Source: an uncultured Pseudomonadales bacterium (GTDB taxonomy: Bacteria; Pseudomonadota; Gammaproteobacteria; Pseudomonadales; Azotimanducaceae). From it: DNA of 64,000 bases. The first letter of the stretch is position 1, and each line of letters opens with the position of its first letter. The DNA lies in assembly GCA_937921865.1 (NCBI GenBank), contig CAKZWF010000006.1:124001-188000 (forward strand), read 5' to 3'. A model generated the notes under the pieces. It saw only the letters and a list, made by a program, of their open reading frames with translations. It was not told the DNA's origin and made no database searches. Below, in pieces: positions 1,605 to 22,541 of the stretch. A program made the translations under genes and the position numbers.

Positions 1605-1630
1605 GATTGGCGTTCTGCTCCGCACATTTA

Positions 1631-2378: not shown

Positions 2379-2504
2379 CCTGTGGACACCCGGTGCAGCG
2401 TTTTCTGCAAGACGCCGGGCATGCTTCGAGAGCGCTGAAGGGCCTCGCCATGGGCCCTGAAATGGCTATATATTGCCCGCCGAAAGGCAAACCGAGGGTA
2501 GCGG

Positions 2505-3980: not shown

Positions 3981-4121
3981 CTGACTGTCTGGCGCGGGTC
4001 TGCCGTTGGCGCGGTAACAAGTTCATTACAACGCGTCACAGGATACCCTCATCCCTTGCCTAGAATGGCAGCTTGAATTCGTGACCCCGGAGGCAGGCTG
4101 ACGCTTACGCGCGCCGCCGCG

Positions 4122-5195
4122 ATGCTATATACCTTTCAATCAGTTAATCCTCGCACCTACCGTCTGCTGCTGATGGTCGGGGCGATTGCCCTGTTCTGCA
4201 TGTTATGTCTTGTGCTGTTGCGCAGCGGCTACCTGCAGATCACCATCTCGGCGGCTGCATTGCTGTTGGGGGTCTGGTCGGTCGGCCTGCTGGGGCTGCT
4301 CATCGCCGGTGACAATGAAGACTGGTTACGCAGCCGGGCGCTGACTTTTGGAAAAGCGGTGTGGTGCAATCTCGGTATTGTCACAACCGCGCTGCTCGTT
4401 CCCGATCCGATTCGTCTGCTGTTGCTGGTCGCGCCTCTGTTCGGTGTTTTGTTTACCGCGCTGCATCTGGACAGAAGCCAGATGCTCGTGGTGTCTGCTG
4501 TGACCTGGCTATCCTATCTGGCCGGTGTCCTGCTGCTGCTCCATTTTGGCGTTGCCGACGTTCGCTCCGAGCTGCTGATGGGACTCGCATTCACCGGCAT
4601 GCTCGCGATCATGGTGGTGATGGCTTCCGAGGTGACCGCGTTGAAGACAGCTTTTGAGCGGCGCCGCGACAGCCTCAATCAGGCGATGGAGCAGCTGGCT
4701 GAGTTGGCGATGCGCGATGAGCTCACCGGTCTATACAACCGCCGTTACATCATGGACGTGCTGGAACGGCAGAAAGCGCTGGCGGATCGTGGTCATGTGG
4801 GCTTTACGTTGTGCTATTGCGATCTGGATCACTTCAAGCGAATCAACGACCAGCACGGTCATCAGACGGGAGATCGGGCGCTGCGGGATTTTGCCGAAGT
4901 GGCCCGCAGTGTGGTGCGTTCGGTGGACTATGTTGCGCGGCTGGGTGGTGAGGAGTTTCTGCTCCTTTTAACAGGTGCCGATGCTGAAGCGGCTCACGCG
5001 GTCGCGCGGCGTCTGTGTGAACGCTCCAGGGCGCTGGAGGTGATCGGCGCAGACCCGGACTTTCGGCTCACTGCGTCGGTTGGAATTGCCAGCTATCGGT
5101 CCGGCGAGCGCGTAGAAGATGTGATCCACCGCGCAGATCAAGCACTTTATGCCGCCAAAGCGGCTGGCCGTGATCGAATTGTCATCGGGGAGTAA
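4122..5195 (+). CDS. Membrane-anchored diguanylate cyclase (GGEEF)
   Basis: Predicted to make cyclic di-GMP from two GTP at the inner membrane. Residues 1 to about 175 contain five or six hydrophobic segments with little else, followed by a short helical linker (about 175-195) and a GGDEF domain that begins at LAMRDELTGLYNRRYIMDVL. The active loop is RLGGEEF (GGEEF at 275-279), a catalytically competent form. The inhibitory I-site RxxD (RSVD, residues 266-269) has the standard five-residue spacing, so product inhibition is likely. The gene ends 9 bases before the PilZ-GGDEF-EAL gene, suggesting co-transcription. The membrane sensor does not match a named module that I recognise. Confidence 0.92.
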   Translation: MLYTFQSVNPRTYRLLLMVGAIALFCMLCLVLLRSGYLQITISAAALLLGVWSVGLLGLLIAGDNEDWLRSRALTFGKAVWCNLGIVTTALLVPDPIRLLLLVAPLFGVLFTALHLDRSQMLVVSAVTWLSYLAGVLLLLHFGVADVRSELLMGLAFTGMLAIMVVMASEVTALKTAFERRRDSLNQAMEQLAELAMRDELTGLYNRRYIMDVLERQKALADRGHVGFTLCYCDLDHFKRINDQHGHQTGDRALRDFAEVARSVVRSVDYVARLGGEEFLLLLTGADAEAAHAVARRLCERSRALEVIGADPDFRLTASVGIASYRSGERVEDVIHRADQALYAAKAAGRDRIVIGE

Positions 5196-5204
5196 CGCCT
5201 GCAG

Positions 5205-8200: not shown

Positions 8201-9329
8201 GCTGATTGCGGACACCCTGACCCGGGCCCTGTCTAATCGAGGCGCCACTATTGCCCGACTGGGTGGTGACGAGTTTGGTGTGCTTATCGAAGACATCGAG
8301 ACTCAGGATGCCCGCGACCTCGCGGAAGACCTGTTGAACGCGGTGCGCAAAGAACGCTTTGAGTGGGATGGTCGGGAGTACTCACTGTCTGCCAGTATGG
8401 GGCTGGTGTTCGTCGACCAGACCACCGAAAACGTCGATGCTGCAATGCAGTATGCGGATGAGGCCTGCTATACAGCGAAAGATGCGGGCCGAAACCGGCT
8501 TCAGGAATATGAGCTGGGTGATGCAACAATGATGCGTCGCCACGGTGTTATGGAGTGGGTGACCGAGCTTGACAAGGCGCTGAACGAGGACCGGTTGGTG
8601 CTAAACTGTCAGAAAATCGTGCCGGTGGATCGCAGCGGCGATGCTCACGATGAGCACTATGAGATTCTGCTGACAATGCGCGATGAACTTGGCGAAACCA
8701 TGCCGCCGACGGACTTTATCATCGCCGCCGAGACCTACAATCGCATGACTGCCATTGACCGGTGGGTCATCGAGCGGGTACTGGACTGGATGTCGGTCAA
8801 TCGCGATCAACTTGATCACTTCGGTGGATTTTCGATCAACGTATCCGGGCACTCGGTTAACGACGAAACTTTCCCGGACTTTGTGCTCGAACAGTTTTCC
8901 CGGACTCAGGCGCCAACCGGCAAAGTCTGTTTCGAAATCACCGAAACTGCTGCGATTGCCAACCTGGAAAACGCTGTCGACTTCATGAACAGGATGAAGA
9001 TCATCGGTTGCCAGTTCTCGCTGGATGATTTCGGTACGGGTCTGTCTTCCTATTCTTATCTGCGCAATCTGCCAGTGGACTTCGTGAAAATTGACGGTGT
9101 CTTCGTCAAAGATATCGCCAGCAACCCAGGCGACTATGCGGTGGTTCGCTCAATCAACGAGATTGGCCACTACATGGGTAAAAAGACGATTGCTGAATAT
9201 GTCGAAGACAAAGAAGTTCTGTCACGACTGCAGGAAATTGGTGTCGACTATGCTCAGGGCTGGGCAATTGAGCGACCGCAACCGTTGGAAGACCTGCGGA
9301 TCGTGAGCCCCAACGCGATCGCCGGCTGA
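5205..9329 (+). CDS. PilZ-DUF1631-GGDEF-EAL cyclic di-GMP protein
   Basis: A 1374-residue soluble multidomain c-di-GMP protein. Residues about 20-115 look like a PilZ domain (RRKFQRQ, then D-x-C-x-E-G in IRDFCQEGMLL). Residues about 180-800 match the character of DUF1631: long, acidic and helical. A GGDEF domain follows with an intact GGDEF at 1020-1024 but no RxxD I-site. The C-terminal EAL domain has EIL in place of EAL (E1153), and the other catalytic positions look intact (NVSG, EITET, the DDFGTG pair at 1274-1275, VKIDG, AEYVE). Phosphodiesterase activity is therefore possible. The start is a GTG 9 bases after the upstream diguanylate cyclase, with a poorly spaced ribosome site. Synthesis, degradation and binding of c-di-GMP may all be combined here; which dominates is unknown. 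Confidence 0.9.
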   Translation: MTSSTRSGNVQAFSQTDPANVNRRKFQRQPISLSALVHPNQGRSWLCTIRDFCQEGMLLTGTGGPKSLSATGAQPKAGDEIALHFSVATPKGQKHYRTQASIARLTDAGNGMGVLFDTGMPDDAFGSLIEFAIASGMLSRSIAQSDTIDSEDDDANGAVVSTQSQSAPGTADDTVIPEELFRDRRISDEDAVEVRARISRVTQRALDRVCTQFFGILDNELLVKARDAGTNAVQMMYFEGLEVLEKNRDQIRHDFIGEALKQIDQVSELEDVLERRRRQETGNATKLELVDTGQFEEWLAVAEIISKAENRYTDELLDLRAQLGLVAKPWTHNDVIPIGPAVLAWSFDDAVKDFDFRRVVKQDIYHCFENALIPVLGNLYAALAKLLEDSNVFPSLEELRSSLQRSSVRRTPSGVRVEPEAYQEMDAAVREATMAAEGVGTASRKVDFNPFVPRAGGSRDMYGTARNLLNLERQTRELLGQEADEIIAGPDTPLQDTFRTEDILSALSDIEGELGDTTLGDARLKPRLVELLQQHHGQHKRISEEDYDTIDVMENLVGSMRDDELLTEGIRDWIERLQLTLAKLATKDPAFLREEQDSPHGAVQMLNQLARLGNSKDVRDGIDREVGKRVDELLQKVVKEYDENPSVFDEVVDELNPLVDKQTRAYRGNIERTIRASEGQQKLARARKAVVSEIEERVDGRSMPDLLLELLNPGWRNLMVHTHLRQGPESAEWQDQLTMVDQLWGQMSGDISPDSDEYVDPDKLLKRVVEGLNSISFDPSKRTPLIMKLSSALVGDTTGKKTPVNFKDLPPDRVESALGLEGLLPDSEPGIQTENQDLQKNWSQAVARAKRIQVGEWLATGDKDGRPLILSVAFVGDEAASFVLVNRKGIKNREMMLKEMADGLHEGRITLLEDYDLPLMERASQRMLENMHGQLTYQASHDDLTQLINRKEFERFVELSIANAKANQNSQHGLLYLDLDQFKIVNNTSGHTAGDECLKLIADTLTRALSNRGATIARLGGDEFGVLIEDIETQDARDLAEDLLNAVRKERFEWDGREYSLSASMGLVFVDQTTENVDAAMQYADEACYTAKDAGRNRLQEYELGDATMMRRHGVMEWVTELDKALNEDRLVLNCQKIVPVDRSGDAHDEHYEILLTMRDELGETMPPTDFIIAAETYNRMTAIDRWVIERVLDWMSVNRDQLDHFGGFSINVSGHSVNDETFPDFVLEQFSRTQAPTGKVCFEITETAAIANLENAVDFMNRMKIIGCQFSLDDFGTGLSSYSYLRNLPVDFVKIDGVFVKDIASNPGDYAVVRSINEIGHYMGKKTIAEYVEDKEVLSRLQEIGVDYAQGWAIERPQPLEDLRIVSPNAIAG

Positions 9330-9401
9330 GCCGACCGCGGCTGAATCCGGTGGCTGGTTGAACTGATCAGCCAGAGATCAGGCTGGAGCGTCACGATGTG
9401 A

Positions 9402-10316
9402 CTACCAGCCTCCGTTAATCACAAATTCCAGCAGAGCTTTCTGGCTGTGCAGGCGATTGCCGGCTTCTTCGAAGACCACCGAGCGCGGATCATCGAGCAG
9501 GTCTTCGCTGATCTCTTCGCCGCGATGTGCAGGCAGGCAGTGCATGAGCAGTGTGTCGCGACTGGCCAGATCAAGCAGGTCGGCGGTGATCTGGTAGCCA
9601 TTAAACACTGATAACCGGGAATCTTGTTCACCTTCGTGGCCCATTGACGACCAGACATCAGTGACCACCAGGTCCGCCTTTTCCACAGCTTCTTGAGGTG
9701 TTTCCACCAGCTGAACGTTGTTGCAGCTCTTTACCAGCTCTGGATCCGGGCGGTAGCCTTCGGGAGATGCTACCTTCAGGTTGAAACCCCACTGTCGCGC
9801 CGCATTGATGTAGGAGTGGCACATATTGTAGCCGTCACCCACAAATGCGACGGTGGCTCCAGTGATCGAACCGCGCAGCTCTTCATAAGTCTGTACGTCT
9901 GCCAGCAGCTGGCAGGGGTGGTAGCGCGTGCTCATCGCGTTGATGACCGGAATACTGGCGGTTTCTGCCAGCTGTTCGATCTGTGCCTGATTGCCGGTGC
10001 GAATCACGATAACGTCCACCATGCCTGATAGAACCCGTGCCGTATCCTCGACGGGTTCGCCACGACCCAGCTGGCTGTCCTGATGGCTCAACATCACCAT
10101 GTGCCCCCCCAGTTGTGCCATGCCCGCTTCGAAAGCAACCCGGGTTCGGGTCGACTTCATCTCGAACATTGCCACGCCGGTTTTTCCGGTCAATGTCTTC
10201 GGGCTGGGGTCCTGCTTGAGTGAACGGGCCCGTTGCACAATGGCAGCGAGCTCTTCGGCTGAAAAATCCAGCAGGGTCAGAAAATCCCGTTTCCCGCAAT
10301 TCCTGGCGACTGTCAT
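9402..10316 (-). CDS. argF: Ornithine carbamoyltransferase
   Basis: Makes citrulline from ornithine and carbamoyl phosphate in arginine synthesis. All family motifs are present: the carbamoyl-phosphate loop STRTR, HPCQ (MSTRYHPCQLLAD) and HCLPAHRGEEI. A longer frame upstream exists, but the ATG at 10316 (MTVARNCGKRDFL) gives 304 residues, the usual length, and begins one base after the argD stop. The longer form would run deep into argD. argD-argF is therefore a tight operon. It converges with the PilZ-GGDEF-EAL gene, leaving 72 bases between the stops. Confidence 0.96.
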   Translation of the reverse strand: MTVARNCGKRDFLTLLDFSAEELAAIVQRARSLKQDPSPKTLTGKTGVAMFEMKSTRTRVAFEAGMAQLGGHMVMLSHQDSQLGRGEPVEDTARVLSGMVDVIVIRTGNQAQIEQLAETASIPVINAMSTRYHPCQLLADVQTYEELRGSITGATVAFVGDGYNMCHSYINAARQWGFNLKVASPEGYRPDPELVKSCNNVQLVETPQEAVEKADLVVTDVWSSMGHEGEQDSRLSVFNGYQITADLLDLASRDTLLMHCLPAHRGEEISEDLLDDPRSVVFEEAGNRLHSQKALLEFVINGGW

Positions 10317-10317
10317 T

Positions 10318-11487
10318 TCAGGAACCGTGGCTGTTGACGACGGCGACGACGCGGCTGATAAGTTCGTCTGCCTGTTCGTCGCTGAGCGTGAGTGGGGGAA
10401 GCAGTCTGACGATATTGTCCTGAGTGACATTCAATAAGACGCCATGGTCCAGACCGCGAACCACCAGTTCACCGCAGGGTTCGGAAAGCTCTACTGCGAT
10501 CATCAGACCTTTGCCGCGAACCTCTGTCACCAGGTTATTGCCTGCCAGTTCCCGCGCCAGGGCGTCGATTATGTAGTCGCCCAGATACGCGGCGCGAGCC
10601 AGCAGATCGTCTGCTTCGAGAGTTTCCAGTACAGCCAGCGCGGCAGAGCAGGCCAGAAGGTTGCCGCCGAAAGTTGAGCCGTGATTGCCGGGTTCGAAAA
10701 CTCTAGCGGCAGCGCCGCGCGCCAGGCATGCACCAATCGGCACACCGTTGCCAAGACCTTTGGCTGTGGTAACCAGATCGGGCAGGACGCCGGTATGCTG
10801 GTAGGCAAAGTATTGCCCGGTGCGACCATTGCCGGTCTGAACTTCATCGAGAATCATCAGCCAGCCATTGTCGTCGCAGATCTGACGAATGCCCTCCAGG
10901 TAACCGTCATCGGGAATGATAATCCCGCCTTCGCCGAGGATGGGCTCAAACATGACCGCCACTACATCCGGGTTGTTCCTGCCGATCAGCGCAATCGCGT
11001 CGAGATCGTTGAACGGTGCACGAACAAAGCCTGAGAGCAGCGGCTCGAAGCCTGCCTGCGCTTTGCGCGAACCGGTGGCGGTCAGGGTGGCCATGGTGCG
11101 ACCGTGAAAACTCGCTTCCATCACCACAATGGCGGGTTTCTGAATACCCTTCTTGTGACCGTGCAGGCGGGCTATTTTGATCGCAGCCTCGTTGGCTTCG
11201 GCACCGGAGTTGGCGAAGAACACCGCATCCATGCCGGACAGTTCACACAGTTGATCAGCAAGCTGAGATTGCAGCGGTATTTCGTAGAGGTTGGAGGTGT
11301 GCAGCAGGGTCTGAGCCTGTTCGCTCAGCGCGCGGCTTATGTTGGGATGGGCGTGTCCGAGACCGCAGACGGCGATGCCGGTCAGTCCGTCCAGGTAGCG
11401 TTTGCCATTGCTGTCTTCGAGGTAAACGCCATCACCGCGGCTGAAGGCAACGGGAAGACGTTTGTAGGTTTCCATCAGGTGTGTCAT
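10318..11487 (-). CDS. argD: Acetylornithine aminotransferase
   Basis: PLP-dependent class III aminotransferase that converts N-acetylglutamate semialdehyde to N-acetylornithine; many homologues also act in lysine synthesis on succinyl-diaminopimelate precursors. The 389-residue protein has the cofactor strings NSGAEANEAAIK and LDEVQTGNGRTG, and the Schiff-base lysine K243 in TTAKGLGNGVPIGA. The start is supported by AGGAAG five bases upstream on the minus strand. It is the first gene of the argD-argF pair. Confidence 0.95.
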   Translation of the reverse strand: MTHLMETYKRLPVAFSRGDGVYLEDSNGKRYLDGLTGIAVCGLGHAHPNISRALSEQAQTLLHTSNLYEIPLQSQLADQLCELSGMDAVFFANSGAEANEAAIKIARLHGHKKGIQKPAIVVMEASFHGRTMATLTATGSRKAQAGFEPLLSGFVRAPFNDLDAIALIGRNNPDVVAVMFEPILGEGGIIIPDDGYLEGIRQICDDNGWLMILDEVQTGNGRTGQYFAYQHTGVLPDLVTTAKGLGNGVPIGACLARGAAARVFEPGNHGSTFGGNLLACSAALAVLETLEADDLLARAAYLGDYIIDALARELAGNNLVTEVRGKGLMIAVELSEPCGELVVRGLDHGVLLNVTQDNIVRLLPPLTLSDEQADELISRVVAVVNSHGS

Positions 11488-11569
11488 CGCTGCTTCCTGA
11501 GCTGATTAACTACTTTCGGGCGGTTGCGTTTTATCACCCACATCCGCATTAAGTGGTTTTGGGACCCTG

Positions 11570-11600
11570 AAAAAACAACAGGCAGCGAATTAGCTGCCTG
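11570..11600 (-). terminator. Rho-independent terminator downstream of patB-like gene
   Basis: A perfect 8-bp stem (CAGGCAGC / GCTGCCTG, 11579-11600) with a GAATTA loop is followed on the minus strand by TTGTTTTTT. It lies 40 bases after the stop of the C-S lyase gene and before the argD leader. Confidence 0.85.
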
Positions 11601-11639
11601 CAGAGAAACGAGTGAGAATACGTCAGCTTACGATGGAGT

Positions 11640-12797
11640 TCAATCTCTGCTCAGCGCCGCCATTGCCGTTTCGAATCGCGTCAAGCCCTGCTCCAGAAAC
11701 GCCCTCGGGCAGGCAAAATTGAAGCGGACGAAACCTGGAGCGCCAAACGCAGCACCGTCCGAAAGACCCAGGCCGTGCGATTCAAAGAAATCTCCGGGTC
11801 GATCCGCGACCGCTGTATCGCGCATGTCGACCCAGGCGAGATAGGTGCCCTCAAGATGGGTCAGTCGTGGCCCGATTACCTCCCGAAGCCGCTTCAGGTT
11901 GCCGCGCAGATAATCTTTCAGTTCAGGCAGATAGCTGGATTCGTCAGCGAAGGCGGCCGTGGAGGCGGCAATTGCCAGCGGACCGACATCAGGCACCAGA
12001 TCTGCCTTCGCGGTGCGGAAGGCGGCTCGCAGATCAGCGTTCGGGATCACCGCCACCGCGCAGGGCAGGCCGGGAATATTGTAGGTTTTGGTTGCCGCAT
12101 AGAGACTGATGCTGCGTTGTGCTATTTCTGGCGACAGACTGGCCACCGGAATATGTCGGGCGTGCTCATCGAGCACCAGGGAGCAGTGAATCTCGTCTGA
12201 ACACAGGGTCAGGTTGTGCTCGATACAGAAGTCAGCCAGAGCGGTCAGCTCTGCTTTGCTGTAGACCCTGCCGGTGGGATTCTGCGGATTACAGAACATC
12301 AGCAGTCTGGTGCGCTCGGTGACGCTGGCCTGCAGCGCATCGACGTCCATGGTCCAGCGCCCATCGCTGCCGGGTTGCAGCGCAACTTTCTGAGCCTCTA
12401 GACCAGTGTTCCCGGGAACAGTCAGGAACGGATAGTACACCGGGGTGGGAATCAGTACGGCGCTATCAGGCTCGGCAACGGCTCGGGCAGCCAGGTTGAA
12501 ACCGGGCACCACACCGGGCACCCACACCAGCCATTCATCGGGTACCGTCCAGTTGCACGACCGCTGCAGCCAGCCCTGAAACGCCCGGTTTAAGGTATCA
12601 GGAACCCGCGTATAGCCGATGATCTCCTGGTCGAGACGTTCACGAATGGCGTCCAGAACAAACTTTGGCGCTGGAAATTCCATGTCCGCGATCCAGAAGG
12701 GCAGAATGTCTCGACCCGCATACTTCTCCCACTTGCTGCTGCTGGTGTTGCTTCTGTCGATGACGCGATCGAAGTCGCTGGCGAACGCCTGACTCAA
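11640..12797 (-). CDS. PatB/MalY-type aminotransferase, probable cystathionine beta-lyase
   Basis: PLP enzyme of fold type I. The N-terminal KWEKY...LPFWIADMEFPAP string is diagnostic of the PatB/MalY C-S lyase group, which cleaves cystathionine or other cysteine S-conjugates to pyruvate, ammonia and a thiol. The substrate-loop NPQNPTGRVY, CSDEIHCSLVLD and the PLP lysine in AATKTYNIPGL are intact. Length (385) is normal. MalY homologues can also act as regulators, and this cannot be excluded. The gene is monocistronic, diverges from grxD and has its own terminator. Confidence 0.85.
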   Translation of the reverse strand: MSQAFASDFDRVIDRSNTSSSKWEKYAGRDILPFWIADMEFPAPKFVLDAIRERLDQEIIGYTRVPDTLNRAFQGWLQRSCNWTVPDEWLVWVPGVVPGFNLAARAVAEPDSAVLIPTPVYYPFLTVPGNTGLEAQKVALQPGSDGRWTMDVDALQASVTERTRLLMFCNPQNPTGRVYSKAELTALADFCIEHNLTLCSDEIHCSLVLDEHARHIPVASLSPEIAQRSISLYAATKTYNIPGLPCAVAVIPNADLRAAFRTAKADLVPDVGPLAIAASTAAFADESSYLPELKDYLRGNLKRLREVIGPRLTHLEGTYLAWVDMRDTAVADRPGDFFESHGLGLSDGAAFGAPGFVRFNFACPRAFLEQGLTRFETAMAALSRD

Positions 12798-12948
12798 TGA
12801 ACTTCCTTATGCTCTCGCTTTCTAACGCTATTCCTATCCGCTGAACTGGTGGACTGTGAACAGCAGGGCTGATGTGGCTACAATTGCAGGCCTGTACCCA
12901 CAGTAAAACCAGCCGTGGGATCATTCAACACAATCACATGGTGTGCGC

Positions 12949-13293
12949 ATGAGCGAAGAAGTAATAGCGACAATCAAAGAACAGATCGACAGCAATCCGA
13001 TCCTGGTCTACATGAAAGGCTCTCCGGGTGCGCCTCAATGTGGCTTCTCTGCACAGACGGTGCAGTGTCTGATTTCCTGTGGTGAGCGGTTTGCCTATGT
13101 CGATATCCTCAGCAACCCTGACATTCGTGCAACGCTGCCGGGTTACGCTAACTGGCCAACGTTTCCTCAGCTGTATCTCGAAGGAGAGCTGGTTGGTGGC
13201 TGTGACATCATCACCGAGATGTTCGAAAGCGGCGAGCTGGAACCGTTGGTGAAGAAGGCGGCCGCTACAGTCGTTGAAGACTCTCAAGATTAA
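12949..13293 (+). CDS. grxD: Monothiol glutaredoxin
   Basis: CGFS-type monothiol glutaredoxin that binds and transfers [2Fe-2S] clusters with glutathione and BolA-like partners. It closely matches E. coli GrxD: NPILVYMKGSPGAPQCGFS carries the active cysteine, followed by WPTFPQLYLEGELVGGCDI. I start at the ATG at 12949 (MSEEVIATIKEQI, 114 residues) because it aligns with the family N terminus; a GTG two codons upstream is also possible. There is no clear Shine-Dalgarno sequence. The last eight codons, including the stop (VVEDSQD*), are the first unit of a tandem array that continues into the 3' region. The neighbour rnt is convergent. Confidence 0.95.
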   Translation: MSEEVIATIKEQIDSNPILVYMKGSPGAPQCGFSAQTVQCLISCGERFAYVDILSNPDIRATLPGYANWPTFPQLYLEGELVGGCDIITEMFESGELEPLVKKAAATVVEDSQD

Positions 13294-13407
13294 GTCGTTG
13301 AGGACTCTGATTAAGTCGTTGAAGACTCTGATTAAGTCGTTGAAGACTCTCAGCATTGAGTCGTTGAAGACTCTCAATATTGAGTCGTTGAAGACTCTCA
13401 GGATTGA
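13270..13407. repeat. Tandem array of six stop-codon-bearing units between grxD and rnt
   Basis: Six contiguous units (24, 21, 21, 24, 24 and 24 bp) each begin gtcgttgaagactct, with one base changed in unit 2, and end in TAA or TGA. Unit 1 is the end of grxD (VVEDSQD plus stop). The later units read VVEDSD, VVEDSD, VVEDSQH, VVEDSQY and VVEDSQD, each closed by a stop in the grxD frame. Unit 6 overlaps the last codons of the convergent rnt gene. Every unit length is a multiple of three. Confidence 0.97.
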
Positions 13408-14015
13408 GGTAGTTCCAGCAGCCCCCAGCGATTGACCACCTCGCAGAACAACTCTGCAGCGCGCTCGGCGTCGTAGAGGGCTGAGTGAGCGCGGGAATTG
13501 TCGAAATCGATCGCAGCCCGTTTGCAGGCCTCGCTGAGCACGGTATGACCAAAAGCCACCGCAGCCAGCGAGGCGGTGTCGATAAAGCTGAACGGGTGAA
13601 AGGGGCTGCGTTTCAGTGCGTTTCGCGCGACTGCCACCGTAAGAAACTGCTGATCGAACGCGGCATTATGGGCCACCAGAATAGCGCGCTGGCAATTCGC
13701 CTCTTTCATCGCCTGGCGAACATCGGTGAACATCTCCTGCAGCGCGATCTTTTCATCCACTGCGCCGCGTTCTGGATCGTCCGGATCGATGCCGGTCACT
13801 TTGAGCGAGGCCGGATCGACGCTGCTGCCGGGATACGCCTGAATGGCTTTGCGCCAGCCGCGGGTGGGTTCAAGGCGATCGCCATTGAATCCAACGTGAA
13901 CCATGCCAACTTCGAGCAGGGCATGATTCAGCGGATCGAATCCTCCAGTCTCGAAATCGACAACAACGGGCAGGTAGCCACGAAAACGCGTGGCCATATC
14001 GGGTTTGACTGACAT
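13398..14015 (-). CDS. rnt: Ribonuclease T
   Basis: DEDD-family 3'-5' exoribonuclease that trims tRNA and other stable RNA 3' ends. The 205-residue protein carries FRGYLPVVVDFETGGFD (DxE motif), GIDPDDPERGAV, VAHNAAFDQQF and AHSALYDAERAAELFCEVVNRW, all matching E. coli RNase T closely. The ATG at 14015 gives the standard length. Its stop lies inside the last unit of the tandem array shared with grxD. The rnt-grxD adjacency is common in gammaproteobacteria. Confidence 0.95.
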   Translation of the reverse strand: MSVKPDMATRFRGYLPVVVDFETGGFDPLNHALLEVGMVHVGFNGDRLEPTRGWRKAIQAYPGSSVDPASLKVTGIDPDDPERGAVDEKIALQEMFTDVRQAMKEANCQRAILVAHNAAFDQQFLTVAVARNALKRSPFHPFSFIDTASLAAVAFGHTVLSEACKRAAIDFDNSRAHSALYDAERAAELFCEVVNRWGLLELPQS

Positions 14016-14101
14016 GGACGCACCATAACACTGAACCCCAGGTCCGCTAAGCGATTACCGGGCGGGAGGCTGAAGTTATGCCGTTTTCGGCCGATAGCGT
14101 C

Positions 14102-14110
14102 TGTGGATAA
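14102..14110 (-). promoter_or_regulatory. Candidate DnaA box upstream of argG
   Basis: The minus strand reads TTATCCACA, a perfect 9-mer match in the gap between rnt and argG. About 0.5 such matches would be expected by chance in both strands of 64 kb, so this is weak evidence. Confidence 0.2.
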
Positions 14111-14418
14111 CTGAATATTGAGTGATCGTGCCGGGACGTTGCAGTCTGTTGGTATGGGCGATTATTGTCGGCACACTTGGTGCCGAAAGCGCCGGGCCGG
14201 GTGACACTGACCGGGTTGGTGCCGATCTGGAAATTTCTGCTGATCTGGACAGCCCCTGGCGATTTGTCAGTTCAGGTTCGGACTGTCGCTTGGACCAGCA
14301 GCTCGGCTCAGTTGGCACTGCGCGTTTTCTCGGCAGCAGCGGTCAGCCGCTGGCTTCAACCGAGACGATCGCCTACCATTCCCCGCCTTTTTCACGAGCG
14401 AATTCAGGAGGGAATGCG

Positions 14419-15663
14419 GTGTCTAGTTGCGCAAGTGACAGTCAATCTCCACAGAAAATAGTCTTGGCCTACTCCGGTGGTCTGGATACATCGGTGATCT
14501 GCCGGTGGCTGCAGGAAACCTACGATGCGGAAATCGTCACCTTCACCGCTGACATCGGTCAGGGCGAAGAGGTTGAACCCGCCAGGGCTAAAGCCACCGC
14601 AATGGGTGTGAAAGAAATTTACATCGAGGACCTCACCGAGGAGTTTGTTGCGGACTATGTTTTTCCCATGTTTCGTGCCAATACCCTGTATGAAGGGGAA
14701 TATCTGCTGGGAACGTCGATTGCCCGGCCGCTCATTGCCAAACGGCTGGTGGAAATCGCGCTAGAGACCGGTGCTCAGGCCATCAGTCACGGGGCCACCG
14801 GTAAAGGCAACGATCAGGTTCGCTTCGAGTTGGGTGCCTACGCCCTGAATCCGGATATCAAGGTGATCGCACCCTGGCGCGAATGGGATCTGAGTTCACG
14901 GGAGACCCTGATGGACTACTGCGAAAAACACCAGATTCCGGTGGATTTTCAGCGTGGTGCAAAGTCTCCCTATTCCATGGATGCCAACCTGCTGCATATC
15001 TCCTATGAAGGCGACAATCTGGAAGATCCCTGGGTTGGTCCCGATGAGGACATGTGGCGATGGAGTGTTGCCCCCGAGGTTGCCCCGGATGAAGCTGAGT
15101 TCATCGAAATCGAATTTGTCGGTGGCGATGCGGTAGCAATCAACGGCCAGCCGATGTCTCCGGCTGTGCTGCTCAAAGAGCTGAACCTGACAGGCGGGCG
15201 GCATGGCGTTGGCCGCAGCGATATTGTTGAAAACCGCTACGTCGGTATGAAAGCCCGTGGCTGTTATGAAACGCCGGGTGGCACCATTCTGCTGAAAGCC
15301 CACCGCGCTATTGAATCGATCACCCTGGATCGCGAAGTGGCTCATCTCAAAGACGAGCTGATGCCGCGTTACGCAACAATGATCTACAATGGCTACTGGT
15401 GGTCGCCTGAGCGGCGGGTATTGCAGGCGCTGATTGATGAGTCACAGAAGCCGGTCAATGGCAGTGTGCGGCTGAAACTCTACAAAGGTTCGGTCACGGT
15501 GGTGGGTCGCCAAGCGCCCGAAGACAGTTTGTATGATGCGAACGTCGTCACATTTGAAGACGATGGGGGGGCGTATCATCAGCAGGACGCGGCAGGCTTC
15601 ATACGCTTGAACGCGTTGCGATTGCGTCTAGGCGCAAAACGCGGAAGAAAGCTTCTCGAATGA
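14419..15663 (+). CDS. argG: Argininosuccinate synthase
   Basis: Joins citrulline and aspartate with ATP to form argininosuccinate. The ATP-pyrophosphatase P-loop AYSGGLDTS lies near the N terminus; [15 protein letters not shown] and [15 protein letters not shown] are also typical. The frame is open back to 14122, but that upstream part has no family match. The GTG at 14419 has AGGAGG seven bases before it and gives 414 residues, close to the family size. The three arginine genes in this window are on two strands and separated by unrelated genes, so they are not one operon. Confidence 0.95.
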
Positions 15664-16278: not shown

Positions 16279-16917
16279 TCAGCTCAATTCAGTCTTCTCT
16301 CTGAATTCACAAAGATCTTCCAGCACGCATGATCCACAGCGTGGTTTGCGGGCAATACACACATAGCGTCCATGCAGAATCAGCCAGTGGTGGGCGTCGC
16401 GTTTAAACTCGCGCGGAACCACCTTCTCCAGTCTGTCTTCAACCTGGCGTACGGTTTTCCCGGTTGCCAGTCGAGTGCGATTGGAAACACGATAAATGTG
16501 GGTATCCACCGCAATCGTCGGGTGACCGAAAGCAGTATTCAATACGACATTTGCGGTCTTGCGGCCAACACCGGGTAGGGCTTCGAGGGCTTCCCGGGAT
16601 TCCGGAACTTCACCCGCATGTTGCTCAATGAGAATAAGACAGGTCTTACGCACATTCTCCGCTTTGGTGTTGAACAGCCCGATTGTTTTGATATACGACT
16701 TGAGCTTGGCTAAGCCCAGGGCGTGAATGGTTGCAGGTGTGTTCGCTGCTGCGAATAGAGGGCCGGTGGCTTTGTTGACGCTGACATCCGTTGCCTGTGC
16801 AGACAGCATCACCGCAATCAGTAACTCAAATGGGGAATCGAAGTTCAACTCTGTCGTCGGTGCGGGATTCGCGGCACGCAGCCGGGTAAATATCTCCTGG
16901 CGTTTGGATTTGTTCAT
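16279..16917 (-). CDS. nth: Endonuclease III
   Basis: DNA glycosylase/AP lyase that removes oxidised pyrimidines. The helix-hairpin-helix GVGRKTANVVL contains the catalytic lysine, and IAVDTHIYRVSNR contains the catalytic aspartate. The C-terminal iron-sulfur motif C-x6-C-x2-C-x5-C is complete (CIARKPRCGSCVLEDLC). Length (212) is standard. The ATG overlaps the rsxE stop as ATGA, so nth is the last gene of the rnf/rsx operon, a common arrangement. Confidence 0.96.
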   Translation of the reverse strand: MNKSKRQEIFTRLRAANPAPTTELNFDSPFELLIAVMLSAQATDVSVNKATGPLFAAANTPATIHALGLAKLKSYIKTIGLFNTKAENVRKTCLILIEQHAGEVPESREALEALPGVGRKTANVVLNTAFGHPTIAVDTHIYRVSNRTRLATGKTVRQVEDRLEKVVPREFKRDAHHWLILHGRYVCIARKPRCGSCVLEDLCEFREKTELS

Positions 16918-17612
16918 GTCTGCCCCTGGTTCTGTGGTGCGTCGTCGCCTGCGGATTCTGGTTGTTCTGTGCTGCTGCGTGAGATCCGATTGATTAACGC
17001 GTTGGCACCCGCGAGCAGTAGGCCGGCAGCGAGGAACGCGCCTGGCGGCAAGCTCAACAGCCGGATCTGCCAGTCCTCGGTCAGCAGGTCAAGCTGCCAC
17101 GCCTGCGCGCTGGGACCAAACAGCTGAGACATTCCGGCAAACAGTGTGCCGCTGCCGAGGAGTTCGCGAAACCCACCAAGCAGCAGCAGAGCAATTGCAA
17201 AGCCCAGCGCGGTACCAAGTGCATCGATTACGCTGGCGCCGAGGCTTTGTCGGCTGGCGAAGCTCTCAGCTCGTGACAGGATCATGCAGTTGGTAACGAT
17301 GATCTGCACGAAAAGCGCGATGCTCAGATAGAGCTCGAATGCAAAAGCCTGCAGCAGCAGCATTGCTGCGGTGGTGAAGGTCGCGATGATCAGCACAAAA
17401 CACGGCAGGCGGGCAAAATCCGGAATCCAGCGTCGCAGCATCGCAATGCTGCTGCTGGCACCCACCATCACCAGCGCGGTCGCCAGACTCAATCCCAGTG
17501 CATTGACCACGCTGGTGCTGACCGCGAGTAATGGACACAGCCCGAGTAGCTGAATCCAGGCGGGATTGTTGTGCAGCCAGGCGTTGCTGAAAATCTGTGT
17601 GCCGTGGCTCAT
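16914..17612 (-). CDS. rsxE: Electron transport complex subunit RnfE/RsxE
   Basis: Integral membrane subunit of the Rnf/Rsx complex, with about six hydrophobic helices. WIQLLGLCPLLAVSTS, IVTNCMILSRAE and GFRELLGSGTLF match RsxE well. The ATG at 17612 (MSHGTQIFSNAWLHNN, 232 residues) overlaps the rsxG stop as ATGA and aligns with the E. coli start; a codon three positions upstream (MPVMSHG) is less likely. It is followed immediately by nth. Confidence 0.93.
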   Translation of the reverse strand: MSHGTQIFSNAWLHNNPAWIQLLGLCPLLAVSTSVVNALGLSLATALVMVGASSSIAMLRRWIPDFARLPCFVLIIATFTTAAMLLLQAFAFELYLSIALFVQIIVTNCMILSRAESFASRQSLGASVIDALGTALGFAIALLLLGGFRELLGSGTLFAGMSQLFGPSAQAWQLDLLTEDWQIRLLSLPPGAFLAAGLLLAGANALINRISRSSTEQPESAGDDAPQNQGQT

Positions 17613-18136
17613 GACCGGCACCGGGTATTTGCCGGATCCGGCAGCTGTAGCGCTTGCGCAACGGCCTGTCTGACCGCGTTGCTGCTGATCGTCGCGCCGG
17701 TCACCGCATCGATGTGCCCGACGCCAGTCGCGGTGCTGGTGCGGAATTCATCGAGCCAGGAGCCTTGCTGATGGTCGTTGAGGAAATCCGCAATACCCGG
17801 TGTTTCCAGATGTCGCACCACGCTGACCCCGATGATTTCCCTTTGATCCGAGCGCCAGGCCAGCAACAGTTCAATAGGACCTGCATAGCCGTCTGCCTGC
17901 AGACGGGCTGCGACAATGCGCTGTGCACACCAGACTATCTGATCATCCTGCCAGGCTTCTGCTAGCAGGGCTGTGTCAGGCAGTGTCTCACCCAACAGAT
18001 CACGCAGCGCCCGCTGATCGTGCGCGCGCTGATTGTCGGCGATCTGGCCCGCAGTTGTCAGATGGGTAATCGACAACACCAGTGCGCAGAACGCGGCGAC
18101 CAGAACCGGTCCCAGCAGGTTGGTCCGCTCAGCCAT
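17609..18136 (-). CDS. rsxG: Electron transport complex subunit RnfG/RsxG
   Basis: Periplasm-facing flavoprotein subunit with one N-terminal membrane anchor (LLGPVLVAAFCALVLSITHL). The covalent FMN attachment motif is DAVTGATISS near the C terminus, and the preceding GYAGPIELLLAW and HLETPGIADF strings are typical. The ATG at 18136 (MAERTNL) overlaps rsxD by eight bases and gives 175 residues, shorter than E. coli RsxG (206), mainly in the middle of the protein. Longer frames that start inside rsxD lack family similarity. Confidence 0.9.
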   Translation of the reverse strand: MAERTNLLGPVLVAAFCALVLSITHLTTAGQIADNQRAHDQRALRDLLGETLPDTALLAEAWQDDQIVWCAQRIVAARLQADGYAGPIELLLAWRSDQREIIGVSVVRHLETPGIADFLNDHQQGSWLDEFRTSTATGVGHIDAVTGATISSNAVRQAVAQALQLPDPANTRCRS

Positions 18137-19043
18137 GGGCAGCATCCGCCTGCGCCAGTCGGCGATCCAGATAGGGCGTTGCTGCATTGGCCAGCAGTAC
18201 CGCAAAAGCGATCCCGTCGGGATGGCTGCCGAAAATCCGTATCAGCACGGTCAGCGAACCCACCAGCAGGCCAAACAACCATTGACCGCGGGCGCTGGCC
18301 GGGTGGGTGACTGGGTCGGTAACTACAAAAAAAGCGGCGAGCATAGTGCCGCCGGTGAACAGGTGATAGCTCGGAGAGCCAGAGCTTGCTGAGCTGCCGC
18401 TGTCATAACCCGCGGCCGCAACGATCACGATGCCAAGCAGCATGCCCGCAGATACCCGCCAGGCCCCCAGTCTCAGCAACAGTAAAACAATCCCGCCGCC
18501 CAGGAAGACCGCGTTAATCCATTCCGCCCCGGCGCCACCGAGTGAACCGAAACCATTTTCCGGATTCCAGATGTCGGCGACGGTCGCACCGCCACGAAAC
18601 TTGAATGCGGTCAGCGCGGTTGCCCCGGACAGCCCGTCGATCAGATCCGGCCAGGTGGAAAGTGCCAGCGGAAATGACAGCAGCGCGGCGGCATAGCCAA
18701 CCATCGCGGGGTTGAAAACGTTGTTGCCCAATCCCCCATAGGCGTACTTAGCCAGTCCGATCGCGGTAATGGTGGCAAACGCCAGTACGCTCAGGGGCAC
18801 GGCCGGTGGCATCGCGGCAGCGATGATCAGCGCGGTCACCAGGCTGCTGCCGTCGCTCAGTCGGTTTAAATCAAGCTGCCCCCTCAGCCGTTGACAGATT
18901 GCCTCGGTAGCAGTTGCAATCACCGCCGCAAACCCGGCATTCACCAATATCATCGGACTGGTCAACCAGGCGGTTACTACCAGTCCCGGAATCAGGCAGG
19001 CGGCCACCATCAGCATGATGCCGCGGGTATCGCGGGCTACCAT
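18129..19043 (-). CDS. rsxD: Electron transport complex subunit RnfD/RsxD
   Basis: Polytopic membrane subunit with covalent FMN. The flavinylation motif is DGLSGATALTAFK. YGGLGNNVFNPAMVGYAAAL, FTGGTMLAAFFVVTDPVT and GSHPDGIAFAVLLANAATPYLD are diagnostic. At 304 residues it is shorter than E. coli RsxD (352): the N-terminal leader before the first helix is trimmed and the loop before the FMN motif is shorter. The ATG overlaps the upstream stop by seven bases (ATGGTAG). Confidence 0.93.
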   Translation of the reverse strand: MVARDTRGIMLMVAACLIPGLVVTAWLTSPMILVNAGFAAVIATATEAICQRLRGQLDLNRLSDGSSLVTALIIAAAMPPAVPLSVLAFATITAIGLAKYAYGGLGNNVFNPAMVGYAAALLSFPLALSTWPDLIDGLSGATALTAFKFRGGATVADIWNPENGFGSLGGAGAEWINAVFLGGGIVLLLLRLGAWRVSAGMLLGIVIVAAAGYDSGSSASSGSPSYHLFTGGTMLAAFFVVTDPVTHPASARGQWLFGLLVGSLTVLIRIFGSHPDGIAFAVLLANAATPYLDRRLAQADAAHG

Positions 19044-19918
19044 TGCCGCGGGCCTGAACGCAGTCTGGCGGAGCGGCGATCGCTGGCAATGACTGCGGCC
19101 TGAGCCAGCCGCTCCTGGCGGCTTTCGAACAGGGCGCGGGCCCGTTTGGCTTCCTGTTCCACCGTGTCCCGGGTTTGAAGTTTGCTTTTTGCCACCGCGA
19201 AGGTTCCCGCCAGATCAAGGCCGCTGGGACAGACCTGATTGCACAGAGCGCACTCAATACAGTCATCAAGACCGTGTGCGATGGCACCGCTGGGTAGTTC
19301 GCTGCGGCTTGTCCACCACAGCAGATCCGGACTCAGATCTTCGGGGCACGCGGGTCGACACAGGCCGCAGCGTATACACGCATCCCCTGTAGCCGCTTGC
19401 GTGGTGGACGGCTGATTACCCGGCCAGGGTTTATCCTGCGCGGGAACCAGACTGATGCAGTCTACCGGGCAGGGGTCCAGGCACAGCTCGCAGCCTGTGC
19501 AGCGATCTTCGATCACCGTGTGCAGCCATTGTGGCGCACCGGCGATAGCGTCGACGGGGCAGGCTTCAATACACAGAAAACAGCCGATGCACTCAGACTC
19601 ATCAATGACCGCACGGACCGGAGCAGGTGTTGGCAGGCGGCCGCCGGACTCACGGCCAAGCAGGTTTTCCATGGCTGCCTGAACGGGTGCGCCGCCCGGT
19701 GGACACTGATCCAGTGGGGCACCTCCGATCACAGCTTCAGCATAGGGGCGGCAGCCCGGATAGCCGCACTGAGCGCACTGGGTTTGAGGCAGCAGCGCAT
19801 CGACAGCGTCGATGAGTTGCGTGTCATCGCTGGCCAGGCGACGCCTGGCCAGCTTCAGCAGCAGCACAACGCTGAACATCAACAGCGGTAACAGTAACAG
19901 TGGCGCGAGATCTCCCAT
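19037..19918 (-). CDS. RnfB fused to the C-terminal ferredoxin domain of RnfC
   Basis: A 293-residue iron-sulfur protein. Residues 1 to about 28 are a membrane anchor. The RnfB cluster domain has C48, C51, C56 and C72 (TQCAQCGYPGCRPYAE). Two [4Fe-4S] ferredoxin motifs follow (C110-C120 and C140-C150). This RnfB-like part ends near residue 165. Residues about 178-293 then match the end of RnfC rather than RnfB: CIRCGLCRPACPEDL, FDC-like DDCIECALCNQVCPSGL, and a charged helix EAKRARALFESRQERL. The roughly 350-residue N-terminal NADH/flavin part of RnfC is absent, and no other rnfC lies in the operon. The start codon overlaps the rsxA stop by one base. Electron input therefore cannot follow the textbook RnfC route unless another subunit supplies it. 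Confidence 0.88.
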   Translation of the reverse strand: MGDLAPLLLLPLLMFSVVLLLKLARRRLASDDTQLIDAVDALLPQTQCAQCGYPGCRPYAEAVIGGAPLDQCPPGGAPVQAAMENLLGRESGGRLPTPAPVRAVIDESECIGCFLCIEACPVDAIAGAPQWLHTVIEDRCTGCELCLDPCPVDCISLVPAQDKPWPGNQPSTTQAATGDACIRCGLCRPACPEDLSPDLLWWTSRSELPSGAIAHGLDDCIECALCNQVCPSGLDLAGTFAVAKSKLQTRDTVEQEAKRARALFESRQERLAQAAVIASDRRSARLRSGPRQW

Positions 19919-20496
19919 CAGACACCAAATCCGGCGAAACCCATAAATGCCATCGACAGAATTCCAGCGGTAATCAGGGTAATGGGTGTGCCAGAAAACG
20001 CTTCCGGAATTCGGGCATCCTGCAGCCGTTCGCGGATCGCAGCGAACAGAACCATGACCAGCGTAAAGCCCAGCGCTGCGCCGCTGGCGTAGGCGATGGT
20101 TGCGGCGAAGCTCAGCGACTGTTGCAGTGCCAGCAGCGCGACACCGAGTACAGCGCAGTTGGTGGTGATCAGAGGCAGATAGATGCCCAGCACCTGATGA
20201 AGCAGCGGGCTGGTGCTGCGCAGGTACAGCTCGGTTAGCTGGACCACGCTGGCGATGACCACTATGAAGACTATGATCCTGAGGAATTCCAGACCCAGAG
20301 GCACCAGCAGCTGATGATGCAGCACATAGGTTGCGACGGCGGATAACGTCAACACAAAGGTTGTTGCCAGTCCCATCGCAGCGGCGGTGTCATAACGCCC
20401 CGTCGAGCCGATGAACGGACACAACCCGAGAAATTGCGCGAGCACGAAGTTGTTGACCAGAAGAGCACCGAGAAGAATGAGCGCCAGATCGGCCAT
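19918..20496 (-). CDS. rsxA: Electron transport complex subunit RnfA/RsxA
   Basis: Integral membrane subunit with six hydrophobic helices, 192 residues, the standard length. LVNNFVLAQFLGLCPFIG, PLITTNCAVLGVALL and AAIRERLQDARIPEAF are highly typical of RnfA. It is the first gene of the rnf/rsx operon (A, B-C fusion, D, G, E, nth). It starts 8 bases after the metG stop, so transcription may continue from metG. Confidence 0.95.
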   Translation of the reverse strand: MADLALILLGALLVNNFVLAQFLGLCPFIGSTGRYDTAAAMGLATTFVLTLSAVATYVLHHQLLVPLGLEFLRIIVFIVVIASVVQLTELYLRSTSPLLHQVLGIYLPLITTNCAVLGVALLALQQSLSFAATIAYASGAALGFTLVMVLFAAIRERLQDARIPEAFSGTPITLITAGILSMAFMGFAGFGV

Positions 20497-20504: not shown

Positions 20505-22541
20505 TCAGCGCACAATCATTCCCGGCTGCGCACCGGTGTCGGGAGCGATCAGGAAGATGTCTTTGCCACCAGGTCCGGCCGCCAGGACCATGCCTTCAGA
20601 AACTCCAAAGCGCATCTTCCGGGGTGCCAGATTGCTTACCACTACGGTCAGCTTGCCGACCAGATCCGCCGGGTCGTAAGCCTCGCGGATGCCGGAAAAT
20701 ACCTGTCGCTGTTGATCACCCAGATCGAGAGTCAGCGCCAGCAGTTTGTCTGCACCCTCAACCAGTTCTGCGTTGACGATCTGGGCCACCTTGAGTTCGA
20801 CTTTGTTGAAGTCATCGATACTGATGAAGGGATTCTGCGTTGCGTTTGCTGCCACTTCGGGATCTGCTTCGTTGCTGGACTCAGCTGATGCGCCAGCATC
20901 GGGAACCTTGGATGCTTCGATCAGCTGATCCACCGTTTTTCGATCGAGTCGGGTGATCAACGATTCATAGCGGTTGATTTTATGAGACAGCAGCGGCGCT
21001 GCCGCATCCTCCCAGCGCAGAGGTTCGATGTTCAGGAGTTTTTCAGCCGCCTGCACCATCTTGGGCAGCACCGGTTTCAGGTACACGAGCAACGCCCGAA
21101 ACATGTTGACTGCCTGGCTGCAGACCAGCTGGACGCGTTCGCGTTGGTCTTCCTGTTTGACCAGTTTCCAGGGTTCGTGGCGGGCGATGTACTGATTAGC
21201 CAGGTCAGCCAGTGCGGATACCTCTCGTACCACCTTGCTGGTTTCACCTGCTTCGTAGTAGCCGGCGAGTTCACCTTCAGCTACCACGAACCTGTCCCAG
21301 AGTTCCGGGTCGTCGACACGATCGGCGAGCAATCCGTCGAACTGTTTGTTAATGAAGCCGGAGCAGCGGCTGGCTATGTTGACGATTTTACCGACAAGAT
21401 CCGAATTCACCCGCTGCACAAAGTCATCCAGGTTGATGTCGATGTCGTCGACACTGCCGTTGAGCTTGGTGGCGTAGTAGTAACGCAGGTATTCCGGCTC
21501 CAGGTGCGCCAGATAGGTGCTGGCGTTGATCGCGGTACCGCGGGACTTGGACATCTTGCGTCCTTCCACCGTGACAAAGCCATGAGTGTGGATCCGAGTG
21601 GGTTTGCGGAAACCCGCGCCATCGAGCACTGCGGGCCAGAACAGTGCGTGAAAGTTGATGATGTCTTTGCCGATGAAATGGTGCACTTCGCTTGAATTTT
21701 CCGGCAGCCAGTAATCGTCGAAGCTCAGGGTGTTGCCCTGATCAACCAGATTCTGAAAGCTGGCCATGTAGCCGATGGGTGCATCCATCCAGACGTAGAA
21801 ATACTTGTCTGTGGTTCCCGGAATCAGAAATCCGAAGTAAGGAGCGTCGCGGGAAATGTCCCAGGGTTTCAGACCGCTATCCAGCCACTCGGCGAGCTTG
21901 TTGGCTACCTGTGCCGACACTGCGCCGCTGGTTGTCCAGTCTTTGAGCATGTTTGTGTATTGCGGCAGATCGAAAAAGTAATGCTCGGATTTGCTCAGCG
22001 CGGGCGTGGCGCCGGAAATCAGCGACCGTGGATTACCCAGGTCGGTCGCATCGTAGGTGGCACCACAAGCCTCACAGTTGTCGCCGTATTGATCTGGCGT
22101 CTTGCAGCGCGGGCATTCGCCTTTGACAAAGCGGTCAGCGAGAAACATTTTGCGCTCAGGGTCGTACAGCTGCTGGACTTCGCGAGTGAAGATAAGCGAG
22201 CGGTCTTTTAGACGATTGAAAATCAGCTCGGCGAAATGTCGATTTTCCTCAGAATGGGTTGAGTAGTAGTTATCATGCTCGACCAGGAAGTGGCGAAAAT
22301 CTTCGGCGTGCTCGACCCGGATTTTTTCGATCAGTTGCTCTGGCGTAACGCCTTCTTCTTCTGCTTTCAGCATCGTCGCAGTGCCGTGGGTGTCGTCGGC
22401 ACACACATAGCTGACCTGATGGCCACGCATTCTCTGAAAACGTACCCAGATGTCGGTCTGAATGTGTTCCAGCAGGTGGCCGATGTGGATGGCGCCGTTG
22501 GCATTGGGCAAGGCGCTGGTCACGAGTATGCGTCTTGTCAT
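20505..22541 (-). CDS. metG: Methionyl-tRNA synthetase
   Basis: Charges tRNA-Met with methionine. The 678-residue protein has the HIGH motif ([14 protein letters not shown]), a zinc-binding insertion with CPRC and CEAC, the KMSKS loop ([11 protein letters not shown]) and the C-terminal dimerising tRNA-binding domain ([20 protein letters not shown]...[12 protein letters not shown]). The domain order is that of E. coli MetG. It is divergent from mrp, an arrangement common in gammaproteobacteria. Confidence 0.97.

Follow-up and report, generated by a model that had tools for sequence, protein, structure and literature searches.

Can an Rnf complex do without the part that handles nicotinamide adenine dinucleotide (NAD)? 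Rnf is defined as a ferredoxin:NAD oxidoreductase, and the question is raised by an rnf gene cluster in a 64,000-nucleotide stretch of DNA, hereafter the window, from an uncultured Pseudomonadales bacterium of the Azotimanducaceae (contig CAKZWF010000006.1, positions 124,001 to 188,000, of GenBank assembly GCA_937921865.1, a draft of 4.27 Mb in 103 contigs with a completeness of 89.7%). In this cluster, the RnfB gene (19037-19918, minus strand) ends in what remains of RnfC. We consider it fairly probable that the cluster encodes a working, conserved variant of Rnf/Rsx that lacks the RnfC module for NADH and flavin mononucleotide (FMN) and keeps the RnfC ferredoxin domain, tied to RnfB. RnfA, RnfB, RnfD and RnfE of the window all score over a model cut-off, and RnfC with its FMN/NAD(H) site is absent. 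Because this defining NAD site was tested for and is absent, we classify the system as a new variant of Rnf/Rsx and not as an ordinary member. No description of a fusion between RnfB and the RnfC tail, or of an Rnf without an NADH module, was found in the parts of open PubMed Central covered, subscription papers being outside the search; PMC4014512 discarded fused and chimeric sequences ahead of its alignments (this and the other papers cited are represented here by portions of their text).

The fusion protein and its operon

The fusion gene, rnfB-C', encodes 293 amino acids. Its N-terminal side matches the RnfB model TIGR01944 over residues 12-164 (186.6 bits against a cut-off of 68.7; NCBIfam), residues 173-279 match only positions 361-467 of the 556 in the RsxC model (NCBIfam), and residues 175-250 match only positions 359-434 of the 435 in the RnfC model TIGR01945. 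The remnant of RnfC is thus its last ~110 residues, within the RnfB gene; the window's operon contains no rnfC, and the barrel, FMN and NADH domains of that protein are wholly absent from it. The joint lies on a domain boundary, since the RnfC match begins where the ferredoxin domain of Clostridium tetanomorphum RnfC begins (residues 359-435; PMC9588780).

The RnfB part (residues 1-154; 19457-19918) comprises a membrane helix, an FeS domain (Pfam FeS, residues 43-74) and two [4Fe-4S] ferredoxin motifs (Fer4_21, residues 103-157), with invariant cysteines. From its last cysteine, C154, a linker of 26 residues (19379-19456) leads to the first cysteine of the tail, C181. The RnfC ferredoxin domain (residues 175-250; 19169-19396) carries two further [4Fe-4S] motifs (C181/184/187/191 and C220/223/226/230), followed by a long charged C-terminal helix (residues 236-287; 19058-19213). 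Along the whole protein the cysteine ligands are C48, C51, C56 and C72 and then four CxxCxxCxxxCP motifs, and all 20 of them, making five [4Fe-4S] sets, are invariant across all 24 fused proteins aligned (the window's own, plus 23 others chosen from the fetched homologues, each 39-57% identical to it). A profile of the fused family matches Azotobacter vinelandii RnfB as well as the RnfC tail, the latter in structure 8ahx_C at 362-482 (E 9e-24), and by this alignment the fused protein retains the helix stretch at the end of A. vinelandii RnfC. AlphaFold likewise predicts a helix at residues 236-287, with block means of 79-98 across residues 241-290; the fusion model as a whole is poor (mean predicted local distance difference test score 66.8, predicted template modelling score 0.37) and was used for the C-terminal helix only. 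An earlier reading of the window, made from its letters without database searches (the sequence-only reading), had described complete RnfB cluster motifs followed by two RnfC-type motifs and a charged helix, and had held that the NADH- and flavin-binding part of RnfC is gone from the operon. The profile matches and cysteines bear out the former claim, and the restriction of the TIGR01945 and RsxC matches to the tail bears out the latter.

The genes run metG, rnfA, rnfB-C', rnfD, rnfG, rnfE and nth, all on the minus strand, and from rnfA through nth adjacent genes overlap by 1-13 bases, as expected from the contiguous, overlapping operon proposed earlier. RnfA (192 amino acids; 19918-20496; PRK05151, 254 bits, cut-off 240) contains the cysteine motifs LGLCPF and TTNC, which, by analogy with the role described in PMC11889175, would help to hold a membrane [2Fe-2S] cluster. 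RnfD (18129-19043; TIGR01946, 263 bits, cut-off 207) matches PF03116 alone, with no PF00175 domain on the protein; it bears the flavinylation motif DGLSGAT and is without the N-terminal SPH/Y arm of canonical RnfD. RnfG (17609-18136, with the ATG taken as its start; the list of open reading frames has a longer frame from a TTG) exceeds the cut-off for Pfam FMN_bind, reaches 82.5 bits with TIGR01947, below the cut-off of 102, and carries the flavinylation motif TGAT. The motifs SGAT and TGAT are therefore kept in RnfD and RnfG, as had been noticed before, and flavinylation itself is predicted from them; two genes for the flavin transferase ApbE lie elsewhere in the genome. RnfE (235 amino acids; 16914-17621) scores 252 bits with PRK12405 (cut-off 184) and 205.6 bits with TIGR01948, just below the cut-off of 213.4. 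No NqrF or NqrA gene was found in the window's rnf cluster. The cluster is bordered by metG (20505-22541; PRK00133, 921 bits), a conserved upstream neighbour by synteny, and ends with the endonuclease III gene nth (16279-16917; TIGR01083, 280 bits), which is also the last gene in related loci. These two were found at 100 and 89, respectively, of the 131 loci in the FastTree set described below.

Spread of the fusion and the search for an NADH module

Is this arrangement peculiar to one draft genome? Among 206 genomes from 37 genera of the window's family (the home family), the fusion is present in at least 109. One match runs across both parts in 99 of them (including G014, with a single internal stop call), four are cut by a contig end, and six contain either an extended linker or a stretch of N; the total is a lower bound. 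An order-wide draw of 390 genomes, in which the listed matches end near E 1e-45, revealed at least five fused genomes outside the home family among the matches listed (G451, G497, G547, G367 and G338), none of them with a full rnfC (best match 78.4 bits). One of the five, G451, falls inside the home family on the IQ-TREE tree and may represent contamination or transfer. Two RnfB-tail fusions outside the home family, at L269 (the locus of G338, family f44) and at L172 (the Chromatiales metagenome-assembled genome Ww634), look like separate events. A genome of family f1, G016, listed as 99% complete, matched neither the fusion protein nor rnfC among the matches listed and may have lost Rnf altogether.

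The redox parts are retained across the fused loci. Four CxxCxxCxxxCP motifs were found in 35 of 36 loci of a first set, and at least four in 38 of 39 loci of a second. Both RnfA cysteines are present in 38 of 39 loci, the exception (L269) being cut by a contig end. For RnfE, the two cysteine patterns are likewise found in 38 of 39 loci. The RnfG flavinylation motif was recovered in 33 of 35 loci and the RnfD motif [ST]GAT, by pattern, in 30 of 37, with four others cut or unclear. The linker varies from 20 to 92 residues in the 38 loci measured of 39, L155 being unmeasured because of a run of N. Conservation of the cofactor motifs to this degree gives the impression that purifying selection acts on a functional redox chain.

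These results bear on a simpler account of the short RnfC, namely that it is a decaying remnant or the product of an assembly error missing ~1 kb. The stepwise shrinking of RnfC across the home family would suit decay, as would relatives such as G016 in which no rnf match was detected among the matches listed. Nevertheless, the same kind of joint recurs in at least 109 genomes, the cluster ligands are invariant in the aligned set, the partner genes are intact, and a clean in-frame deletion separates close relatives (see below), all of which make this account highly improbable. An assembly error is ruled out by the family-wide conservation of the joint and by the deletion between close relatives. 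The sequence-only reading, which had considered decay unlikely and had named ~1 kb of missing assembly as a way in which it might be wrong, stands on both points.

To ask whether an NADH module persists elsewhere in the fused genomes, we used TIGR01945 as the rnfC marker, with at most seven candidates scored per genome. PF13375 (RnfC_N) was rejected as a marker and TIGR01945 taken in its place, as PF13375 also matches frames of ~450 amino acids, which from their lengths alone look like NqrA, and much longer frames. Among the matches listed, to which the rnfC, Complex1_51K and SoxR counts given here all refer, a full rnfC was found in three of the 109 fused genomes (G000, which is the window's own, G032 and G088); in the others the best TIGR01945 match is at most 88.8 bits, in keeping with the tail alone. 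A Complex1_51K (PF01512) match is absent from 48 of the 109, so neither RnfC nor NuoF is seen there. Under stricter genome quality (completeness of 90% or more, contamination of 5% or less), the match is missing from 25 of 68 fused genomes. One of the carriers without it is G002, a fused genome of the window's genus that is listed as 100% complete. The tabulation of fusions against rnfC thus follows the pattern that the sequence-only reading had anticipated (at least 109 of 206 genomes fused, three of the 109 with a full rnfC). Its claim that there is no NADH module holds for the variant, with 106 of the 109 lacking a full rnfC, and fails for the organism: a search of the window's genome for a separate rnfC found a full-length gene on contig C65, the very result that the reading had named as contrary to it.

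PF01512 finds one protein in the window's genome, on C65, and the RnfC encoded on this contig has 455 amino acids and scores 442 bits with TIGR01945 (cut-off 246). Its operon (locus L032, G000:C65:17000-36000; 4021-15074, minus strand) consists of a long-type rnfB, a 1641-amino-acid pyruvate:ferredoxin oxidoreductase-like gene, rnfC, D, G, E and A, and also includes a ferredoxin-NADP-reductase/BoxA-like protein. The placement of a 2-oxoacid oxidoreductase gene after rnfB and before rnfC suggests that this Rnf is fed directly from pyruvate-type oxidation. The guanine-plus-cytosine content of the C65 operon is 64%, versus 58% for the window. A binning error for C65 is possible but not needed, since G032 and G005, also of the family, have operons with the same rnfB...rnfC-D-G-E-A order (in G005, one operon of two).

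With a full RnfC in the same genome, the NADH module might act in trans, supplied by the C65 protein or by a flavoprotein such as NuoF, and NAD would still be used. Some Complex1_51K protein is indeed present in 61 of the 109 fused genomes. We regard this as quite improbable, given that a full RnfC occurs in three of the 109, that the 48 without Complex1_51K include G002, and that the C65 RnfC carries a ferredoxin domain too, one that would presumably collide with C'. As the C65 RnfC lies in its own operon, it need not serve the window's complex. For most carriers, the rnfC and Complex1_51K counts led us to reject RnfC in trans.

The same genomes allow a second candidate to be weighed, that of an Rsx-type system keeping SoxR reduced and fed by ferredoxin in place of NAD(P)H. 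Escherichia coli RsxABCDGE is held to reduce SoxR together with RseC (PMC12174285), and RseC_MucC, at 28.9 bits (cut-off 24.4) in the window's genome, occurs in 51 of the 109 fused genomes; the RseC survey is uninformative, with 98 of all 206 genomes positive. SoxR itself exceeds its cut-off in 12 of the 109 by hand count, and the window's genome (89.7% complete) yields no more than 43.2 bits, short of the 116.9 required. From these counts SoxR was rejected as the target for most carriers, and this function is scarcely credible for the variant; the SoxR-like target offered in the sequence-only reading is accordingly unlikely.

The electron path without its last step

What, then, could such a complex do? 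In solved Rnf structures, the electron path forms a U, from ferredoxin through RnfB, the RnfA/E [2Fe-2S] cluster, RnfG, RnfD and the two RnfC [4Fe-4S] clusters to RnfC FMN and NAD+. The order RnfB, A/E, G, D, RnfC clusters, FMN and NAD is described for Acetobacterium woodii, where the RnfB and RnfC clusters are more than 30 Å apart and direct transfer between them is unlikely (PMC11889175). In C. tetanomorphum, 11.7 Å separate the riboflavin from the first RnfC cluster (PMC9588780). In both systems, the path up to the RnfC clusters maps station by station onto the window's set. Judged by sequence, all electron stations through the RnfC clusters are present, and only the final two-electron step to NAD is gone. 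By the portions of text cited, the C. tetanomorphum and A. woodii complexes reduce NAD+, have an RnfB with more clusters and have RnfC as a separate subunit, unlike the window's.

The long C-terminal helix of A. vinelandii RnfC contacts RnfB and RnfH (PMC12174285). We propose that the covalent link in RnfB-C' would replace the former contact between the RnfC helix and RnfB, and that C' would still sit under RnfD. Without the FMN domain to cover it, the outer cluster of C' would be exposed and could swap single electrons with a soluble one-electron carrier such as ferredoxin, flavodoxin or some flavoprotein, and electron transfer between two such carriers would be coupled to ion movement. The fused complex probably exchanges electrons with something other than NADH. 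That it is an ion-coupled one-electron transformer between two soluble carriers (e.g. two ferredoxins of different potential), with neither nicotinamide nor quinone taking part, and that it was made independently several times, is a more specific proposal that we advance tentatively, as a possibility we would not bet on.

The tail may instead have moved. In that case C' would only add length to the RnfB ferredoxin chain where electrons come in, and electrons would exit either through RnfG, on the periplasmic side, or through RnfD, within the membrane, with a quinone or periplasmic acceptor taking them up; the complex would then be a one-way ferredoxin oxidase. Consistent with this, C' is covalently linked to RnfB through the linker described above, one-way flavinylated NQR/RNF-like systems have been proposed (PMC8238504), and the RnfD arm on which RnfC docks is gone. 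It is hard to explain on these terms why exactly the RnfC domain was repeatedly retained, with at least seven changes on starred branches (see below) and also as a free small gene. The RnfC-type cysteines and C-terminal helix are retained as well, and we think a moved tail unlikely.

The arm deserves a closer look. RnfC of C. tetanomorphum buries the N-terminal arm of RnfD (PMC9588780). The motif of this arm, [SA]P[HYF], was found in 57 of 61 canonical loci outside the home family and in two of three further outside loci. It was found in none of the 32 fused loci belonging to, or grouped with, the home family, nor in the five fused loci elsewhere, the five free-tail loci or the five odd rows. 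Arm positions were anchored by BLAST, a few anchors being poor (e.g. L148 and L152), and loci without an RnfD hit were left out. The contrast between canonical and fused loci fits a complex without the NADH module. The arm went early, and its absence alone does not indicate that the module was lost, because the motif is also absent from loci with a separate or full RnfC.

That same observation is among several that weigh against a working variant without the NADH module. The arm motif is gone from all 26 home-family loci with a separate RnfC and from the family's one full-RnfC locus, as well as from both unfused loci of family f15, whose RnfC looks intact. Individual fused loci depart from the conserved pattern: L061 shows three of the four CxxCxxCxxxCP motifs, the RnfE of L269 is without both cysteine patterns, and L112, L120 and L125 carry TAAT in place of SGAT in RnfD. 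The AlphaFold model is uninformative on the placement of C'. No electron partner was found, and neither of the two genes tested for co-occurrence with the fusion, SoxR and RseC, accompanies it. Finally, the window's genome has the second complete Rnf, with RnfC, on C65.

Comparison with known systems places the variant more precisely. The gammaproteobacterial Rsx/RnfABCDGE (E. coli Rsx, A. vinelandii Rnf1) has the same subunits A, B, D, G and E in the same order, whereas the window's system lacks the RnfC barrel, FMN and NADH domains, has the RnfC tail inside RnfB and has lost the RnfD arm motif. The membrane core of Na+-NQR is homologous to the window's, and its subunit NqrA, homologous to RnfC, has lost the cofactors (PMC4014512, PMC11889175). 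Na+-NQR kept the RnfC fold without them, whereas the window's system lost the FMN/NADH fold and kept two iron-sulfur clusters, with no NqrF domain at the locus. The NQR/RNF-like systems are reduced Rnf relatives, thought to be one-way, in which RnfD is fused to an NqrF domain with an NAD site, as far as the cited portion of PMC8238504 goes; the window's system keeps A, B, D, G and E and has lost the NAD site. The presence of an Rnf without the NAD module in over a hundred species, with an apparently repeated origin, suggests that the RnfC clusters and the membrane core have a use even where NAD takes no part. The variant opens a direct test of core function and of the purpose of gammaproteobacterial Rsx.

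Possible intermediates and origin of the fused state

How did the tail come to be joined to RnfB? Across the loci, RnfC forms a graded series: full RnfC, RnfC minus most or all of the barrel, a frame of RnfB, 51K and tail, a free tail, and a fused tail. The full protein (barrel, 51K and tail) occurs in the outgroups and, within the home family, in G096, and forms without most or all of the barrel occur, e.g., in G069 and further genomes of that genus. Early labels of RnfC as having no N-terminal barrel were too coarse, being based on BLAST with one distant query, and several RnfC proteins of the family keep much of the barrel. At L145 (G226, 1303-3594), RnfB, a Complex1_51K domain and the RnfC tail share one 764-codon frame, a possible fusion intermediate. 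The tail stands as a free small gene in G211, G223, G013 and G108 and also in Pseudohongiella (L235). The series parallels the change from RnfC to the cofactor-free NqrA, but the opposite half of the protein is kept.

To place these states on a tree, we used MetG, RnfA, RnfD, RnfE and Nth in 87 rows (L158, with too little sequence, was dropped from 88) and ran IQ-TREE in quick mode under LG+G4 with the Shimodaira-Hasegawa-like approximate likelihood ratio test. The outgroup does not form one side of a branch, three rows being on the wrong side. The fused state changes nine times on this tree, at least seven of them on starred branches; an earlier FastTree tree of 131 rows gave seven changes, five on starred branches, and the two trees place G096 differently. 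A named metagenome-assembled genome of the K189A clade (L170, from a contig scan that kept 80 of 593 stretches), a clade to which NCBI assigns HTCC2089, falls within the home family on both trees. Such counts do not tell gain from loss. Most changes should be independent losses, because a lost 51K domain is unlikely to return at the same place. A membrane electron pump thus appears to have lost its NADH part repeatedly, its iron-sulfur wire being kept and usually joined to the ferredoxin subunit.

Family f15 offers a view of one such loss. There, G049 has a full RnfC in a 492-amino-acid frame that keeps the barrel (60.6 bits) and the conserved glutamate discussed below, and in G367, G497 and G547 RnfB runs directly into the RnfC tail. 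When G367 is compared with G049, identity is 80% for RnfB, across 195 residues, and 71% for the tail, across 135, and position 358 of the G049 frame is where the tail of G367 joins on. The DNA on either side matches at 73.6% and 72.4%; between these two matches lie 1,106 bases in G049 and 22 in G367. This amounts to a clean, in-frame deletion of ~1.1 kb between close relatives, with a joint similar to the window's. In f15, the RnfC from which the module was lost seems to have looked intact, which sets this family apart from the home family.

In the home family, by comparison, the part-reduced proteins show uneven wear. The FMN-core residues G154, G156, G157, K165, N179, D190 and G253 (numbered as in the C65 RnfC) are kept in 27 of 27 rows of separate or part-reduced RnfC, one contig being included twice (L130 = L179). 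E222, in the same numbering, occurs in all 62 canonical rows (a single one of them, L163, comes from the home family) and in one of the 27. Mean retention of the residues fixed in canonical RnfC is 0.32 for the barrel, 0.80 for the 51K domain, 0.64 for the next domain and 0.86 for the tail in the 27 rows. The glutamate of the NuoF RGE motif binds NADH, and RnfC E222 aligns two residues off this position; by this analogy, E222 may have a role in nucleotide binding.

Other loci depart further from the usual set. At L157 (G013), neither of the two proteins encoded where rnfA and rnfE would stand matches any Pfam model, even at E values up to 1, and in the genus of L156 (G108) and L157 the core itself may be drifting. 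At L160 (G029, 1602-3296, minus strand), RnfD is fused to an RnfG-like FMN_bind domain with TGAT in a protein of 564 amino acids, and its neighbours are an RnfB in which no tail was detected and a membrane protein that does not match RnfA; L160 is an even more reduced Rnf relative.

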